A DNA stretch of 54,718 nt from Candidatus Falkowbacteria bacterium CG10_big_fil_rev_8_21_14_0_10_37_14 (GTDB taxonomy: Bacteria; Patescibacteriota; Patescibacteriia; Patescibacteriales; Patescibacteriaceae), in contig PFAM01000008.1 of assembly GCA_002778705.1 (NCBI GenBank), positions 40,133-94,850 on the forward strand, read 5' to 3'. Shown piece after piece: positions 1,065-8,359 of the stretch; positions within the stretch are counted from its first letter, which is position 1; each line of letters begins with the position of its first letter. The notes under the pieces are model-generated. The model saw only the letters and a program-made list of their open reading frames with translations, was not told the origin of the DNA and did not search any database. The position numbers and the translations under genes are program-made.

Positions 1065-1090
1065 TGTAACACTTTGTAGAAAACTTCGTA
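1065..1090 (+). promoter_or_regulatory. ECF-type (SigW-like) promoter of the sigma gene
   Basis: TGTAAC (1065-1070), exactly 16 nt, then CGTA (1087-1090). The Bacillus SigW consensus is TGAAAC-N16-CGTA. The same arrangement occurs at 3287-3312. The start of transcription would fall about 10 nt before the ATG at 1109, which suggests autoregulation by the encoded ECF sigma factor. That last step is inference. Confidence 0.6.
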
Positions 1091-1108
1091 TTATTAAACG
1101 ATACTAAA

Positions 1109-1696
1109 ATGCCCGAGCACGAGCACAATTCTTTTTTCAGCAGTGATCAAAACTTGCTACTGCGTTTGAAAAAATATAAAGATAAAGAGGCTTTTTTGGT
1201 GGCATATGACAATTATGCTAACGATATTTATCGTTTTTTGTACTTTAAAGTAGGCAATGTAGAGGAGGCACAAGACTTAACTTCGTCAACTTTTGTGAAG
1301 GCCTGGAGTGTGGTGCGTGATGGCCAACTCAAAGATGACGATAGTTATAAGACATTGAAGGCGTTTCTATATAAAATTGCCCGTAATCAAGCAATTGATT
1401 ATTACCGTCAGAAAAAAACCGTTAATTTTAGCGATTTATCAGAGGAACAGGTTGATTTTGGTGACGAAGGTGATGCCGTAGGACGAGTAATTAATAATAT
1501 AGACAATCAGCTCTTAATAGAGCATTTGAATAAATTAAAATTGGAATATCGCAATGTTTTGGTGATGTATTATGTCAACGAGCTTAATGTAGCAGAAATC
1601 TCCAAAGTATTGGATAAAAGTAGAGGTAATGTTCGTGTTTTACTATTTAGAGCCACTAAGGCCTTGAAAGACTTAATGGATCATAAAAGTTTGTAA
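1109..1696 (+). CDS. ECF-type RNA polymerase sigma factor
   Basis: A 195-residue sigma-70-family factor with only regions 2 and 4, the ECF architecture. Region 2 covers about residues 28-103 (NVEEAQDLTSSTFVKAW, then the -10-binding helix ending near AIDYYRQKK). Region 4 covers about 135-190, with the helix-turn-helix LNVAEISKVLDKSRGNVRV. There is no Shine-Dalgarno before the ATG. Two promoters precede it: a sigma70 type and an ECF type that matches the S-layer leader promoter. The downstream DUF5667 membrane protein is the likely anti-sigma factor. The inferred role is control of envelope genes, including itself and the S-layer-like protein. Confidence 0.9.
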   Translation: MPEHEHNSFFSSDQNLLLRLKKYKDKEAFLVAYDNYANDIYRFLYFKVGNVEEAQDLTSSTFVKAWSVVRDGQLKDDDSYKTLKAFLYKIARNQAIDYYRQKKTVNFSDLSEEQVDFGDEGDAVGRVINNIDNQLLIEHLNKLKLEYRNVLVMYYVNELNVAEISKVLDKSRGNVRVLLFRATKALKDLMDHKSL

Positions 1697-1723
1697 AGCT
1701 CATAAAGTTTTTAAAGTTAGTTT

Positions 1724-2530
1724 ATGAAGGACAAGGAATTGCTGATAAAATTAAAGGGTTTGCGTTCGCTTAAACTTAGCGACGATTGGAAAGATGTCAA
1801 TCGCCGTGTTTTGCGTAGCCAAATTTATAGCGGACAAACTGAAAAACAAAATTTGAATTTTTGGGCTAAATTTAATGTGGCTTTTGCTCGTTTATCTGAG
1901 CCGTATGCTGTAGCAGCCATGATTTTTTTGTTTTTTGTAGCTTCTGGTGTGGGTAGTGTGATGGCTTCTAAAGGCGCTCAACCAGGTCAGATTTTGTATA
2001 ATGCTAAAATTATCAGTGAAAGAACTAAATATGCTTTAGCTCGCAGTGAACAAAGTAAAACTAAATTGAACCTAGAATTTGCTCAAGAGAGAATGACTGA
2101 GTTGACTGTGGCTTTAGATAATAATATTGAAGTTGATCAACCTAAAGTGGCAACACTTAAAACTGATTTTAAGAAAGAAATTAATGCGGCTCGAGAAAAA
2201 ATTTATAAATTACAACCAGCTGTCGCTAAAACTGTGATTGATAAACCGATTGCTGTAAAAATTGAAACCGATAAAACAGCCTCAACAACTGCAACCGTGG
2301 CTAAAACTACTAATAAAAGCGTAACAGATTTTAAGAGTGCGACTAATAATAAAGATGACAAGCGTATTGATATATCCATTCCGTTGACACCGTCGGCTAA
2401 GATTGAAACGGTTACTACTTCGGCGGCCGCTTTGGATGAAGCGGAGTTATTGTTTGATAAGGCAGATTATACCGCAGCCAAAGAAGCTTTGGATAAGGCT
2501 AATGTTTTGCTGGATAGTGAAACTAAGTAA
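1724..2530 (+). CDS. DUF5667 membrane protein, putative anti-sigma factor
   Basis: A 268-residue single-pass membrane protein. Residues 1-58 are basic and probably cytoplasmic, 60-82 form one membrane helix (YAVAAMIFLFFVASGVGSVM), and about 86-180 match the DUF5667 pattern (GQILYNAKIISE, then LNLEFAQERMTEL), probably outside the membrane. A low-complexity Thr/Lys/Asp tract and an Ala-rich, TPR-like helical end follow. It starts 27 nt after the sigma gene, the usual place for an anti-sigma factor. The N-terminal segment is the candidate sigma-binding part, with the outer domain as sensor. No zinc-binding anti-sigma motif is visible, so the regulatory role rests on context. Confidence 0.75.
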   Translation: MKDKELLIKLKGLRSLKLSDDWKDVNRRVLRSQIYSGQTEKQNLNFWAKFNVAFARLSEPYAVAAMIFLFFVASGVGSVMASKGAQPGQILYNAKIISERTKYALARSEQSKTKLNLEFAQERMTELTVALDNNIEVDQPKVATLKTDFKKEINAAREKIYKLQPAVAKTVIDKPIAVKIETDKTASTTATVAKTTNKSVTDFKSATNNKDDKRIDISIPLTPSAKIETVTTSAAALDEAELLFDKADYTAAKEALDKANVLLDSETK

Positions 2531-2531
2531 T

Positions 2532-3284
2532 ATGCTGTATGATGAACGCTTGAGTCCAGAAATGGCGGAAGACCAAGTGATTTACAATGAACATCAGGTT
2601 CGTTATGAATTGGCAGTCGCTTTGATTCAAGATTTGGATTCTGAAGCGGTGGTGATTGATTGTGCTTGTGGAGAGGGTTATGGAGTTAAGCATTTGGCTG
2701 AAACGGGTCGTAAAATTATCGGCATAGATATTAGCGAAGAGGTGATAAAAACAGCAAGTGTTAAATATCAAGCGGATAACTTAAGTTTTCAAGTGGATTC
2801 GGCAGAAAAATTAGCTACTGTGAAAGATAGTACTGTTGATGTGGTAATTTCTTTTGAAACTATAGAACATTTGCCAAATTATGAAGCTTATTTGGCTAAT
2901 GTTGGGCGGGTTTTAAAAACCACAGGTTATGCGGTGATTTCTACGCCAAATAAAGCAGTGTTTGGGGCGAAAAATCCTTTTCATGTGCGAGAGTTTAATA
3001 AACAAGAATTTGTTGAAGTTCTAGGTAAGTATTTCAAACAGGTGAAGGTTTATGAACAGTTTAACGGTTTAGCGAGTTGGATAGCAGGTGAGGGTGAGGG
3101 TAAAGCCATTGTTAGTAGTCCAAGTAAGCCTTATTACTTCTTGGCCGTGGTATCGCAAAGCGAATTGCCAAAGATGCCGGGGACAGTGATGAGTGGGAAT
3201 GGACTAGCGTATGAGCGGAGAGAGAATAACCCAGCTTGGAAATTAATTAATAAAGTGTATTCAATAGTTAGAAAGTTTGTGTAA
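2532..3284 (+). CDS. Class I SAM-dependent methyltransferase
   Basis: A 251-residue UbiG/Methyltransf_11-type enzyme. The SAM-binding glycine motif is DCACGEGYG at 43-51, the acidic residue ending strand 2 is D66 (GIDIS), and the motif at 108-114 is FETIEHL. The substrate cannot be read from the sequence. I chose the ATG at 2532, one base after the stop of the DUF5667 gene, because it places the Rossmann domain normally; the frame is open further upstream but overlaps that gene. It is the third gene of the sigma operon. Right after its stop comes the ECF-type promoter of the S-layer leader. A role in modifying a glycan or lipid is possible but unproven. Confidence 0.85.
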   Translation: MLYDERLSPEMAEDQVIYNEHQVRYELAVALIQDLDSEAVVIDCACGEGYGVKHLAETGRKIIGIDISEEVIKTASVKYQADNLSFQVDSAEKLATVKDSTVDVVISFETIEHLPNYEAYLANVGRVLKTTGYAVISTPNKAVFGAKNPFHVREFNKQEFVEVLGKYFKQVKVYEQFNGLASWIAGEGEGKAIVSSPSKPYYFLAVVSQSELPKMPGTVMSGNGLAYERRENNPAWKLINKVYSIVRKFV

Positions 3285-3286
3285 AT

Positions 3287-3312
3287 TGTAACGTTTTACA
3301 ATAAATATCGTA
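3287..3312 (+). promoter_or_regulatory. ECF-type (SigW-like) promoter of the S-layer leader
   Basis: TGTAAC (3287-3292), 16 nt, CGTA (3309-3312): the same two boxes and spacing as at 1065-1090, while the spacers differ. It starts 3 nt after the methyltransferase stop and would drive the long leader and the S-layer-like gene. Confidence 0.65.
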
Positions 3313-3319
3313 GTATTAT

Positions 3320-3784
3320 AGGATATTAACACAACACAGATCTTCCGATCTTCTTCGGGGGATAAAATGCCTGTAATGCTGAGCTGTGAGTTGCCCAAAA
3401 CTGGACACTTCGCAGTTCCGCGTTAACGCAGAACTGGCAGAGCGACGCAATGGTCGACAGCACCGCAAGGGCTGGCTCTTGTCGGGTGAAAACTATTATA
3501 TTGTATCAACCCTTCCTATCCTTTCGGGTTAATATGAGATATTTTTGCCCACCAAATTTAAATGGCTTTTATGGCTGACACTTATATTATTTTATAGATT
3601 GGTTAACTTTTTTCCGCAGCTTTCCGCTCAGGATTGGTCTAGGGTAGTCAGCGGCGGACGATTGATCTGTCAAGATTAATCCGGCAACTTCTCTTAGGCG
3701 GAGGACTGCGGAGAAACGGGATCCCGACTAATTTATAAAATTTTTAAGCAAGGTTTAAATAAAAGCTGAAAGGAATAAATTATT
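3320..3784 (+). ncRNA. Long structured 5' leader of the S-layer-like gene
   Basis: About 465 nt without a coding frame, holding many helices readable by eye. Hairpins: 3341-3348 with 3355-3362 (G-U rich); 3413-3418 with 3431-3436, capped by 3420-3422 with 3427-3429. A branched unit is closed by 3439-3443 with 3475-3479 and contains an arm at 3443-3456 and a GCAA-tetraloop arm at 3458-3474. Then 3508-3512 with 3526-3530 plus 3498-3502 with 3531-3535. A second domain is closed by 3614-3619 with 3706-3711 and contains 3624-3628 with 3650-3654 and 3661-3668 with 3673-3680. Some partners compete: 3413-3417 can also pair with 3399-3403, and 3508-3512 with 3484-3487. I recognise no known riboswitch class. 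It could be a regulatory leader, a stabilising 5' UTR or a separate small RNA. Confidence 0.6.
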
Positions 3785-6700
3785 ATGAACAAATTGAAGA
3801 AATTACTTGCTATTTCTACTATCATCTCCACTTTCTTTGGTATGACAGTTGTTGTTAACCCAGCTTCTGCCGCTACTGCCGTTGATGGTGATTTGATTAA
3901 GATGAATGGCAATTCTGCTGTTTACTACCTACAAGGTGGTAAGCGCTACGCTTTCCCGAATGAGAATGTCTATAAGACCTATTACTCTGATTGGAATGGT
4001 ATTAAAACCATCCCTAACGAAGAAATGTATGGTTACCAATTGAGTGGTAACATATTATATCGTGCTGGTACAAAATTGGTGAAAATCACTACTGTGCCAA
4101 CCGTTTACGCTGTTGAAGCCAACGGTACTTTACGCTCTATCGTCAGCGAAGCTAACGCTATTGCTTTGTGGGGTGCTAACTGGGCTTCTATGGTGCGTGA
4201 TGTTGATGACACTTTGTTCACCAACTACACTGTTGGTACTCCTTTGACTGCTGGTACTTATCCTGCTGGTCAAGTTGTGAAGATGTCTACATCTAATGAC
4301 TTGTTCTACTTCGATGGTACTAACTATCGTAAGTTTGCCAATGATTCAGCAATGTTGGCTAACGGTTTCAAATTTGAAAACGTAGCTACTACTGCCATGA
4401 CTATTAACGCCGGTGGCGCTATGGTTAATGGTGCTGAAGCTGGTTTGATGACCGTGGCTATGAGTGGTGGCAACGGTGGCACTGTGTACACTGGTGGTAC
4501 TGGCTTGACTGTGGCTTTGGCTACAAACACTGCCGCTTCCAACACTGTTTTACAGAACCAATCTATTGCTAACATGGCTACTTTTAACTTTACCGCTTCC
4601 AGCGATGGATCTGCTATTGTTAAAACTGTCAAGATTAAGCGTGTCGGTATTTCTTCCGATACTGCTTTGAGCAATGTTTATTTGTACGATGGTAACACTA
4701 AATTAACTGACGGCGGTTCTATTTCAGCTGGTTATGTGACCTTTTCTGATTCCAACGGACTATTCACTATTGCCGCTGGCGCCACTAAAGCCATTACAGT
4801 AAAGGCGGATATATCTGCTAGCACTGGTAACGTTGGTGTTTCTATTGACGCTGCTAGCGATATTACTACTTCCGGCGCTGCTGTTAGTGGTACTTTCCCA
4901 ATGACTGGTAACACAATGGCTATGACTTCTGTAACCGATTTGGCTACAGCCGTCGCTGGAACCGTTGCTAGTTCTGGTAACGTTAATGCCGGTACTATGG
5001 GTGTGACTCTATGGTCTGACACCTTTACAGTTAGCCAACGTGATGTGAATTTGACTGATGTTAATTTCCGTCAAATTGGTTCTGTTGCTAAAGATGATAT
5101 CCAAAACATGGCTTTGTTTGTTGATGGTATCAAAGTTGGTACTGCTTTAACAATGCTAGATGATAATAATCGCGCTCACTTTGATTTAAGCGCTGCTCCT
5201 GTTGTTTTACAGACCGGCAACCGTACAATTGAATTGCGTGGTGATATCATTAAGGGTTCTTCTAAGACCTTTAGTTTCTCTTTGCAGACTGCGTCTGATG
5301 TTTCCTTTGTTGATTCCAATTATGGAGTTAATATTTCTGCTGGTGGTTTGCCTCAGACTACTACTTCTGCCACTATTCAAAATGGTAGTTTAGTAATTGC
5401 TGCTGATCCAACTTTCGGTACTACTCAAGTAATGAAGAATCAATCTAATGTTACTTTGGCCAAATATACCTTTAAGGCTTATGGCGAAGACATGAAGGTT
5501 ACAACTTTGAATGCTAACGTTTTGTTGACTGGTGCCACAGGCGCAACTACTACAGCTGCTACTGATGGTATTAACAATCTGGCTATCTTTGTTAACAATG
5601 CTCAGGTTGGTAGTTCTCAAAATGCTTTGCAGACAACTACTGGCACAGACTTTAACCCTGTGAAGACTTATGGTACAACCAATTTGTTCACTGTTAAAGC
5701 TGGTGAAACTGCTACTGTAGAAATCCGTGGTACTTTAGTGATGAACAGTAGTTCTACTACAGTTACTACTGTTACTTCTAAGTTAGTTTCTGTTGCTGGT
5801 GCTTTCCAAGGTTTGTCTTCTTACAATACAACTGGCGGTGCTGATTATGCTACTAAGTCTTTGACTATTGTGGCAACTGGTTATTCTGCAATTTCTTTGA
5901 ATAACGCTTATGCTACTAATCAGACTCAGGTTAACAATGTTTTGAAGCAAAAGATCGGTTCCTTTATTATTCAAGCTGGCACACTAGAAGGCATCACAGT
6001 GTCTAATATTGCTATCAACTTCCCAACAGGGACTGATAACACTATGGCTACTACTACCTTTGCTAGTAACTTGTCTAACTTGTATATTTCGGAAACTCCA
6101 AATAGCCCAGTTGGTAATCCTACTATCACCACTTCTAATGTAACTAACTTCCCAGTTAACTTTACTTTAGCAGCCGGTGCTACTAAGACTATTGATGTTT
6201 TTGCTGACATCGCTTCTATGACAACTGCTGAAACTTTGACCCCTAGTATGGCTATTACTGCCAGAACTTCTGTGGTTAATTTATCTGCTGATGTCGCTGC
6301 GACTGCTGGTCAAAAAATTACTTACACTTCAGGCTCTTTAGCTGATCCTACTTTAGTTGCTAACTCTTCTTTGAACAAGTTGGTTACTGGTGGTACTACT
6401 GATAATGCTGGTGTCTTTAATTTTGTGGCTACTAATGGTGCTGCTACTATCAAGAGCATGAAGTTCTTGGTTAGCGATTGTACTTCTATCGCTACTGTAA
6501 CTGTGGGTGGTGTAACCGCTCCTGTTACTGGTACTGGTTCTTGTGTCGCTGACTTTACCAATGCTTTAAATATCGTTGTTCCTGTTGGTTCTACAGGTCT
6601 TAATGTTCCTGTGACTGCCGCTTACAATGCTATTGGTACTAACGCTGGTACTACCAGAGTTACTCCTAAGTTGACTTTTGATGGCATGAGCTATCAAATT

Positions 6701-7264
6701 GGTAATGGCGCTCCAACTACTATGACTTCCGGTGTAGGTCTTGACGGTATGATCAATGTGGTCGTAGCTTCTGTTCCTACAGTTGCTTTGCAATCTTCTG
6801 GTATTTCTACCGTTTTAGGTGGTTCTAATCAGTTGGTTATGAAGATGTCCGTTACAGCTCCAGCAAGTGGTCCAATCAACTTGAAGCAATTCAATGTTAC
6901 TCCAGTTATCACAGGCTTTACTACAAGCTCTGTTGTCTCTGTGTATGACATGGATAACGCCTCTACTAATCTATTGACTGGTTCTACTCCAGTTGCTTTG
7001 ACTAGCAATGCGTCTTCTTCGTTGACATTCGGCAGTGATTTCTTGATCCCTGCTGGAACAACTAAGACTTTTGGTGTGAATGTTACTGGTACTTTGGCCG
7101 GTGGTACAAATACTAATCACTTCACCTTGTCTTTGTCTGCTCCTAATGATACCGGTGTTTCCACTGGTACTGACTGGAAGTGGAACGATACGACCGCTGC
7201 TACCTATGGCAATGCTTATCTGTTAAAGGATTTGACATCTGCTGGTGTTACTTTGAGTCAGTAA
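3785..7264 (+). CDS. S-layer-like secreted surface protein
   Basis: A 1159-residue secreted protein with signal peptide 1-29 (basic start, hydrophobic core, cleavage after ASA). Residues about 36-205 hold three related modules (VYYLQGGKRYAFPN; VYAVEANGTLRSIVSEA; LFYFDGTNYRKFANDS). This module is familiar from Patescibacteria surface proteins and probably anchors or assembles the lattice. The remaining ~950 residues are Thr/Ser/Gly/Ala-rich beta domains in tandem, with only two cysteines in one domain near 895-915. Codon choice is strongly biased, as in an abundant protein. It is led by an ECF-type promoter and a ~465-nt structured leader, and ends at a strong terminator inside a three-hairpin element. 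It is most likely the main S-layer or coat protein. Confidence 0.8.
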   Translation: MNKLKKLLAISTIISTFFGMTVVVNPASAATAVDGDLIKMNGNSAVYYLQGGKRYAFPNENVYKTYYSDWNGIKTIPNEEMYGYQLSGNILYRAGTKLVKITTVPTVYAVEANGTLRSIVSEANAIALWGANWASMVRDVDDTLFTNYTVGTPLTAGTYPAGQVVKMSTSNDLFYFDGTNYRKFANDSAMLANGFKFENVATTAMTINAGGAMVNGAEAGLMTVAMSGGNGGTVYTGGTGLTVALATNTAASNTVLQNQSIANMATFNFTASSDGSAIVKTVKIKRVGISSDTALSNVYLYDGNTKLTDGGSISAGYVTFSDSNGLFTIAAGATKAITVKADISASTGNVGVSIDAASDITTSGAAVSGTFPMTGNTMAMTSVTDLATAVAGTVASSGNVNAGTMGVTLWSDTFTVSQRDVNLTDVNFRQIGSVAKDDIQNMALFVDGIKVGTALTMLDDNNRAHFDLSAAPVVLQTGNRTIELRGDIIKGSSKTFSFSLQTASDVSFVDSNYGVNISAGGLPQTTTSATIQNGSLVIAADPTFGTTQVMKNQSNVTLAKYTFKAYGEDMKVTTLNANVLLTGATGATTTAATDGINNLAIFVNNAQVGSSQNALQTTTGTDFNPVKTYGTTNLFTVKAGETATVEIRGTLVMNSSSTTVTTVTSKLVSVAGAFQGLSSYNTTGGADYATKSLTIVATGYSAISLNNAYATNQTQVNNVLKQKIGSFIIQAGTLEGITVSNIAINFPTGTDNTMATTTFASNLSNLYISETPNSPVGNPTITTSNVTNFPVNFTLAAGATKTIDVFADIASMTTAETLTPSMAITARTSVVNLSADVAATAGQKITYTSGSLADPTLVANSSLNKLVTGGTTDNAGVFNFVATNGAATIKSMKFLVSDCTSIATVTVGGVTAPVTGTGSCVADFTNALNIVVPVGSTGLNVPVTAAYNAIGTNAGTTRVTPKLTFDGMSYQIGNGAPTTMTSGVGLDGMINVVVASVPTVALQSSGISTVLGGSNQLVMKMSVTAPASGPINLKQFNVTPVITGFTTSSVVSVYDMDNASTNLLTGSTPVALTSNASSSLTFGSDFLIPAGTTKTFGVNVTGTLAGGTNTNHFTLSLSAPNDTGVSTGTDWKWNDTTAATYGNAYLLKDLTSAGVTLSQ

Positions 7265-7502: not shown

Positions 7503-8207
7503 ATGAACAATGTGAATATATCGGAACAGGCCAAACAATACGTTCAAGAGCATAAGCAAGAATTATGCGATATGTTTGCTGATCTTGTTTTGTTTCCGGT
7601 CGGTGATAAACCTACTACTATTTTTATGGCCGGTGCTCCTGGTTCTGGAAAAACAGAAAGCTCGGTAGCGTTTATTAAAAATAACCCTGAATTACATTTT
7701 GTAAGAATCGATCCTGATGAAATTAAGGCAAGATTTATACCTCAATATGATGGTAAAAATTCTAATATCGTAAAGCCAGCAGCTACAAAAGCGGTATCTA
7801 TTCTTTTTGATCATTGTATGAAGCGGGGTCAAAATTTTTTGGTGGATGGCACATTTTCTAATTGGACGGCGGTGAGTGGTAATTTACATAAGTTAATTAA
7901 ACAAAAAAGAACTATTTTTGTTATTTATGTTTATCAGGATCCTGTTATTGCTTGGCAGTTTACACAAAAAAGAGGAGTATTAGAAGGGAGATTGATTCCA
8001 AAGCAATTTTTTATAGACTCTTATTTTGAATCTATGGAAAATATTGTTAGGTTAAAAAGAGAGTTTGGGGAGCAAGTTAGTGTTATTTTACTGGAGAAAA
8101 ATGTTGACAATAAGACAATTAAAAACGTTTTTCTAAATGTTGACACTATTGACAAGTATATAAAAAATATTTATACTAGGGAAACTTTAGAGAACATAAT
8201 TATATGA
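7503..8207 (+). CDS. Zeta-toxin-like P-loop kinase
   Basis: A 234-residue P-loop kinase of the zeta toxin/AAA_33 type. Walker A is GAPGSGKT at 44-51. RIDPDE near 68-73 matches the acidic catalytic region, and FLVDGTFSN follows. Family members phosphorylate UDP-N-acetylglucosamine or other small substrates, and some act as toxins that block wall synthesis. The frame is open 90 nt further upstream, but the promoter -10 box lies inside that extension, so the ATG at 7503 is the likely leaderless start. Its end overlaps the next small gene by ATGA, implying coupled translation. No epsilon-like antitoxin precedes it. A housekeeping kinase is the alternative. Confidence 0.8.
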   Translation: MNNVNISEQAKQYVQEHKQELCDMFADLVLFPVGDKPTTIFMAGAPGSGKTESSVAFIKNNPELHFVRIDPDEIKARFIPQYDGKNSNIVKPAATKAVSILFDHCMKRGQNFLVDGTFSNWTAVSGNLHKLIKQKRTIFVIYVYQDPVIAWQFTQKRGVLEGRLIPKQFFIDSYFESMENIVRLKREFGEQVSVILLEKNVDNKTIKNVFLNVDTIDKYIKNIYTRETLENIII

Positions 8208-8359
8208 CAAATAACATAAAGAAAAACAATAAAAAACCTTTTTTCGAATGGCCAAAGAAAGACCAAAAGGAAATGTTTTTTAAGGTTATTGATGAAGCAA
8301 ATAAGGCTCAACGGGCAACCATTAAGAAATACGAAGAGAAGTTTTCTGGTGGAGATTAA
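8204..8359 (+). CDS. Small charged protein coupled to the zeta-like kinase
   Basis: 51 residues from the ATG overlapping the kinase stop (ATGA). It is very rich in Lys, Asp and Glu (starts MTNNIKKNNKKPFF, ends EEKFSGGD), probably helical in its second half, with no signal or membrane segment. I do not recognise a family. The overlap and the terminator 43 nt downstream show that it is the last gene of a two-gene unit. It may be a partner or antitoxin of the kinase; that is inference from position only. Confidence 0.65.
   Translation: MTNNIKKNNKKPFFEWPKKDQKEMFFKVIDEANKAQRATIKKYEEKFSGGD

Follow-up and report, generated by a model that had tools for sequence, protein, structure and literature searches.

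We propose that a gene cluster in the window (the whole 54,718-nucleotide stretch of Candidatus Falkowbacteria DNA analysed here) is an autoregulated ECF sigma/anti-sigma operon with a surface-coat output, to which a second promoter at 3287–3312 adds S-layer output, a reading to which we assign a probability of roughly 80%. According to this model, the sigma factor (1109–1696) is probably kept inactive at the membrane by the adjacent DUF5667 protein, an envelope signal would free it, and the freed factor would guide RNA polymerase to promoters of the form A[GC]TGTAACA-N15-CGTATWATTA. The promoter at 1065–1090 would serve the sigma, anti-sigma and methyltransferase genes, with the S-layer-like gene reached by read-through, and by transcribing itself the operon would set up both positive and negative feedback. 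In this genus, the promoter at 3287–3312 would also start transcription directly at the structured S-layer leader, as a dedicated output.

Both sites lie on the forward strand and match letter for letter, as TGTAAC-ACTTTGTAGAAAACTT-CGTA at 1065–1090 and TGTAAC-GTTTTACAATAAATAT-CGTA at 3287–3312. An earlier note on this DNA had reported two sites with the same boxes, the same 16-nt spacing and unlike spacers, and this description and its coordinates proved exact. A pattern search of the window, in which 0.08 occurrences are expected, returned no third exact TGTAAC-N16-CGTA. The sigma operon site consists of a −35 element TGTAAC (1065–1070), a 16-nt spacer and a −10 element CGTA (1087–1090) followed by TTATTA, with transcription predicted to begin at about 1097–1098. 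In the site directly before the S-layer leader, TGTAAC occupies 3287–3292 and CGTA 3309–3312, and the predicted start is at about 3320.

The earlier note had proposed scanning the genome for the bare motif, with chance frequency counting against its claim. That scan gave 5 matches in the 910-kb genome compared with 1.3 expected (P ~0.01; 2 in the reversed control), a weak enrichment near chance, and none of the 3 matches beyond the two sites stood ahead of a gene in the correct direction. Since the claim nearly failed this test and needed better evidence, the bare-motif scan was dropped as a discriminator, and conservation and an extended motif carry the case. Using a matrix trained on sites from the order, with the window's own family left out, the 1065 site scored 29.9 and the 3287 site 20.6; elsewhere in the window, both strands included, no position exceeded 8.2. 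Simulation of 3×10^7 positions gave a top score of 17.7, short of 20.6, indicating that both window sites exceed chance. An extended order-wide pattern, in which the base after CGTA was left free to accommodate the G of the S-layer site, gave about 107 matches in 111 genomes, its reversed control giving 10; in this genome it returned exactly the 1065 and 3287 sites, with 0 control matches. The two boxes named as the signal in the earlier note are present, but the discriminating signal is larger, also taking in the A[GC] ahead of TGTAAC, the A that follows this box and TWATTA behind CGTA.

The site before the sigma gene is widely conserved. The orthologous gene occurs in 86 of the 111 genomes of the order, and 85 regions were compared (78 fetched and 7 from the window's family). 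In a search permitting spacers of 15–17 and a TGAAA[CT] variant, 52 of the 85 genomes had the strict pattern TGTAA[CT]-N16-CGT[ACT] just ahead of the sigma gene; two more (G037 and G098) carry a CGAA variant, giving 54 of 85 in all. Every reported site had a spacer of 16 and TGTAA[CT], and the consensus for the order is the extended form given above. In 23 of the 52 genomes, the sigma ATG lies exactly 7 nt past CGTA, at the expected transcription start, so that many sigma mRNAs in the order would be leaderless; as far as sequence can tell, this fixed spacing points independently to the promoter's position. The site before the sigma gene is also kept in other orders of the class, where the −10 element is CGTC. 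This conservation, in 54 of 85 genomes and beyond the order, strongly supports the predicted autoregulation of the sigma gene. Conservation in relatives, which the earlier note had proposed checking for both sites, holds for the sigma site; a direct site of this kind was found in only 2 of 55 S-layer upstream regions.

The 195-aa product of the sigma gene (1109–1696, forward strand) contains Sigma70_r2 (33–103, 1.9e-11) and Sigma70_r4_2 (136–186, 1.3e-11) joined by a short linker, with no region 3 (Pfam), and exceeds the cut-off of the sigma70-ECF family TIGR02937 (NCBIfam). The hallmark of ECF promoters is AAC in the −35 element and CGT in the −10 element, and the −35 region of SigW promoters reads ATTGAAACCTTT (PMC8103513). 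TGTAAC-N16-CGTA carries this hallmark in the 54 of 85 genomes with a site. Having regions 2 and 4 only, this promoter type and an autoregulation site, the protein qualifies, on predicted features, as an ECF (group IV) sigma factor. Its best NCBIfam match is the BldN family TIGR02952, with 108.3 bits, below the equivalog cut-off of 206.45; for SigW (TIGR02948) it reaches 60.1 bits, below the cut-off of 243.1. The top structure match is SigW (5wuq), and 6dxo, which we take to be the RsbN–BldN complex, is among the top sequence matches.

The Bacillus SigW consensus is TGAAAC-N16-CGTA, and the earlier note had called the promoter SigW-like. The 16-nt spacer and CGTA bear this out, but BldN/RsbN is suggested no less strongly by the GTAAC −35 element and by the match to the BldN family. 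In that Streptomyces system, an ECF sigma factor with a membrane anti-sigma factor recognises CGTAAC-N16-CGTT and activates the chaplin and rodlin surface proteins. With SigW/RsiW of Bacillus subtilis (and SigX), the system described here shares AAC in the −35 element, the 16-nt spacer, the CGTA −10 element, predicted autoregulation and, in relatives, candidate envelope and efflux targets. It differs in reading TGTAAC rather than TGAAAC at both window sites, in having no RsiW-type anti-sigma domain (Pfam) and in a regulon reduced to two detected promoters. With BldN/RsbN it shares the predicted surface-coat output and the best family match, and the BldN-dependent promoter of rsbN itself (PMC4255298) parallels a site that one family of relatives (f15) carries between the sigma and anti-sigma genes. 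In contrast to BldN/RsbN, the sigma factor scores under the cut-off for the BldN family, the candidate anti-sigma is a DUF5667 protein without detectable similarity to any solved anti-sigma, and the predicted target, encoded in one cluster with the sigma gene, is a large protein of Ig repeats whose mRNA has a long leader. By analogy, the sigma factor would work like both SigW and BldN, and the chaplin/rodlin coat is the closer analogy for its output. An incomplete literature search found no earlier description of ECF regulation in Patescibacteria.

The gene that follows (1724–2530, forward strand) encodes a putative membrane anti-sigma factor (Pfam DUF5667, 1e-10) with an N-terminal helical domain, a single transmembrane helix and an external DUF5667 domain. 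The predicted model is all-helical, with helix 60–82 as the membrane segment, and the helical N-terminus is conserved as ELxxxLNxLKxIKPDxxWKxxNREILxSQIS. Pfam detected no anti-sigma domain in this protein, and sequence and fold searches of the PDB gave no informative match. Homologues neighbour the sigma gene in 77 genomes, and the protein is most likely the cognate anti-sigma of its neighbour. Next comes a SAM-dependent methyltransferase gene (2532–3284, forward strand; Pfam Methyltransf_31, 5.4e-22), which belongs to the operon in some genomes only (13 of 85 regions). The cluster of sigma, DUF5667 anti-sigma, optional methyltransferase and same-strand S-layer-like gene was found in 54 of the 59 testable genomes, that is, those with at least 4 kb of sequence downstream. 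Nothing resembling a terminator with a strong T-run was seen between the cluster genes of the window, and transcription would therefore be expected to read through.

The last gene of the cluster (3785–7264, forward strand) encodes a secreted protein of 1159 aa, with a signal peptide (recognised by eye), an N-terminal domain and a chain of Ig-like beta domains. Its AlphaFold model (pLDDT 82.8) is all-beta with tandem domains, and Foldseek matched it to Ig-like chains, the S-layer protein SbsB among them; Pfam gave no S-layer homology domain and no sequence match. The secreted chain of Ig-like domains resembles Geobacillus SbsB and other Ig-domain S-layer proteins, but the S-layer homology domain is missing and generic Ig-repeat proteins match better than SbsB. 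Large, secreted and repetitive in its beta/Ig-like architecture, as an S-layer protein is expected to be, it can reasonably be called S-layer-like from its modelled fold and its position, and it is probably the cell's protein coat. It is adjoined by a gene for a Zeta-toxin-like kinase (7503–8359; Pfam Zeta_toxin, 1.3e-32), with a small gene directly after.

The S-layer-like gene is preceded by a structured 5' leader RNA of 465 nt (3320–3784, forward strand; z = −5.4 relative to shuffles) with a conserved AATGGTCGA loop at 3449–3457 and a ACGGGATCCCGA element at 3716–3727. In 18 S-layer upstream regions tested, folding was far above that of shuffled sequence (z −5.9 to −21), and most of 77 genomes share AAGGTCG and GGGATTCC elements in this leader. 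Because the helices of the AAGGTCG domain are too variable for MAFFT/RNAalifold, co-variation was judged by scoring each helix with its own partner and with partners swapped between genomes. The AAGGTCG helix scored 6.9 with its own partner versus 5.6 when swapped (74% versus 31% above threshold), and the GGGATTCC helix 9.5 versus 7.6. Counterparts with AAGGTCG and GCGGGATTCCG elements and co-varying helices occur across the order (for example, L031:9145-9585 and L030:10561-11038). An Rfam search of the window and the leaders gave nothing credible, and a DNA search with the leader inside the family returned scraps only. The leader is conserved by motif and structure rather than overall sequence and is probably a separate new RNA element. 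Illumina-adapter-like strings were seen in the window leader (TCTTCCGATCT, 3339–3352) and in the S-layer leader of one relative (GCTCTTCCGATCT; G072, L114); the former makes up one side of a 9-bp hairpin without mismatches and so may be a coincidence.

The promoter at 3287–3312 is far less widespread than the one before the sigma gene. Among the 55 S-layer upstream regions, an ECF-like site was found only in this genome (20.6) and in G001 (17.8), the only other genome of the same genus; the remaining 53 scored at most 3.6. In G001, two −35 positions are mismatched, and the site is shifted by some 30 nt and partly covers the end of the methyltransferase gene, suggesting a parallel or shifted site rather than the same one by descent. 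Since the direct promoter is confined to the genus, the general link between sigma factor and S-layer is the operon, and elsewhere the S-layer gene would have to be transcribed by read-through or from other promoters. The proposal that the sigma factor drives the S-layer-like gene is well supported by gene order in 54 of 59 genomes, by the shared strand and the lack of an evident terminator and, in this genus, by a second ECF-like promoter within the cluster. The direct promoter appears at genus level only.

It is unlikely, though worth serious weight, that the 1065 site is the sole genuine promoter, the 3287 match being a product of chance or decay and the S-layer gene being served by read-through and a housekeeping promoter. 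The 53 upstream regions without a comparable site would fit such an account, as would the rank of the 3287 site, which lies under every autoregulatory site (23.2–41.8), lacks [GC] ahead of TGTAAC and has G after CGTA. So would G009, where a near-perfect sigma-70 promoter (TTGTCA-N17-TATAAT) precedes the S-layer gene. Against this, a score of 20.6 was never attained in the simulation, the site falls exactly at the leader start, on the right strand and with TATTA after CGTA, and G001, the second genome of the genus, carries its own ECF-like site at that place. A perfect pair of 7-bp arms, ATTGTAA-CGTT-TTACAAT (3285–3302), overlies the S-layer −35 element and could be read as an operator instead of part of an ECF promoter. 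We consider this very improbable: the arms are absent from the 1065 site and from most relatives' sites, and the conserved part is asymmetric and includes the −10 element.

Two further accounts would assign both sites to a different factor. Ordinary sigma-70 promoters in AT-rich DNA, with the boxes coincidental, would draw on the TATTAT at 1089–1094 and on a TTGACG-N16-TATTAT match at 994–1021. We give this account hardly any credence, given that TGTAA and the C, G and T of the −10 element are invariant in 51 aligned sites with a spacing that is always 16, an invariance that is partly built into the pattern, although spacings of 15–17 had been open. Sigma-70 scores at 3287 are also background-like, as they are before S-layer leaders generally except in G009. 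The sites might instead be read by another sigma factor such as the product of the second ECF-like gene of the genome (contig C24, 53279–53761; L017), which is 27% identical to the 1109–1696 protein and has CGTATTATTA just before its start. This too is improbable, as the motif tracks the orthologue of the 1109–1696 gene across the order and the second gene has no TGTAAC at the right distance.

The preferred reading, in which the cluster's own sigma factor reads these sites, extends to relatives whose circuits are rearranged. In family f15 and in G102 and G103 (about 25 genomes), the ECF site lies between the sigma and anti-sigma genes and not before sigma, so that the site expected for positive autoregulation is found after the sigma gene in f15. 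On the sigma tree, the relocation needs about three changes, at least two of them forced by well supported branches, and the pre-sigma arrangement occupies most deep branches. Circuits of the f15 type would retain negative feedback and lose self-activation. Several f15 loci without a pre-sigma ECF site (L131, L139, L152, L157 and others) carry a sigma-70-like promoter upstream of sigma and, between it and the sigma start, a GC hairpin with a T-run (for example, CGGG...CCCGTTATTTTTTGTT) that resembles an attenuator or terminator within the leader of the sigma mRNA. Secondary ECF sites in relatives precede recurrent genes for ABC exporters, MFS transporters and a Mur ligase, targets that would fit an envelope and efflux response. 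At the exporter and MFS loci (L201, L202, L205-L211, L216, L223, L224, L226, L229, L232 and L233), exporters of about 590 aa start 50–85 nt past the site start (one at 234 nt) and MFS transporters of about 395 aa have leaders of 250–430 nt. In one genus, an ECF site is followed by a conserved leader, a likewise conserved peptide of 49–50 aa with a single membrane helix (MKELSGLIGFLVLIMVLRWAMPPEASALAGEILVKILTIIRDLISQAQI and variants) and a hairpin-T terminator (L212, L213, L215, L217, L218, L219, L220 and L222).

Regulators are few in Patescibacteria, and culturing them is difficult; how these bacteria respond at the cell surface, the part of them that touches hosts, is little understood. We hold as evenly balanced the broader interpretation that this order controls its coat in two layers, an almost single-purpose ECF operon and a previously undescribed leader RNA, with feedback rewired as the promoter moved from before sigma to between sigma and anti-sigma, and with a direct coat promoter added in one genus. 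A promoter before sigma would mean self-activation, and one between sigma and anti-sigma self-limitation only, so that the relatives may provide a natural series of rewired feedback circuits as well as a handle on the role of the S-layer leader RNA. The sequence by itself provides a consensus for the promoter, predicts where transcription starts and points to a small regulon in each genome with a clear output; these predictions can be tested in vitro or in E. coli, with no need to grow the organism. The result is a specific, testable claim about surface control in tiny, mostly uncultured bacteria, built on a putative start signal conserved in dozens of relatives.
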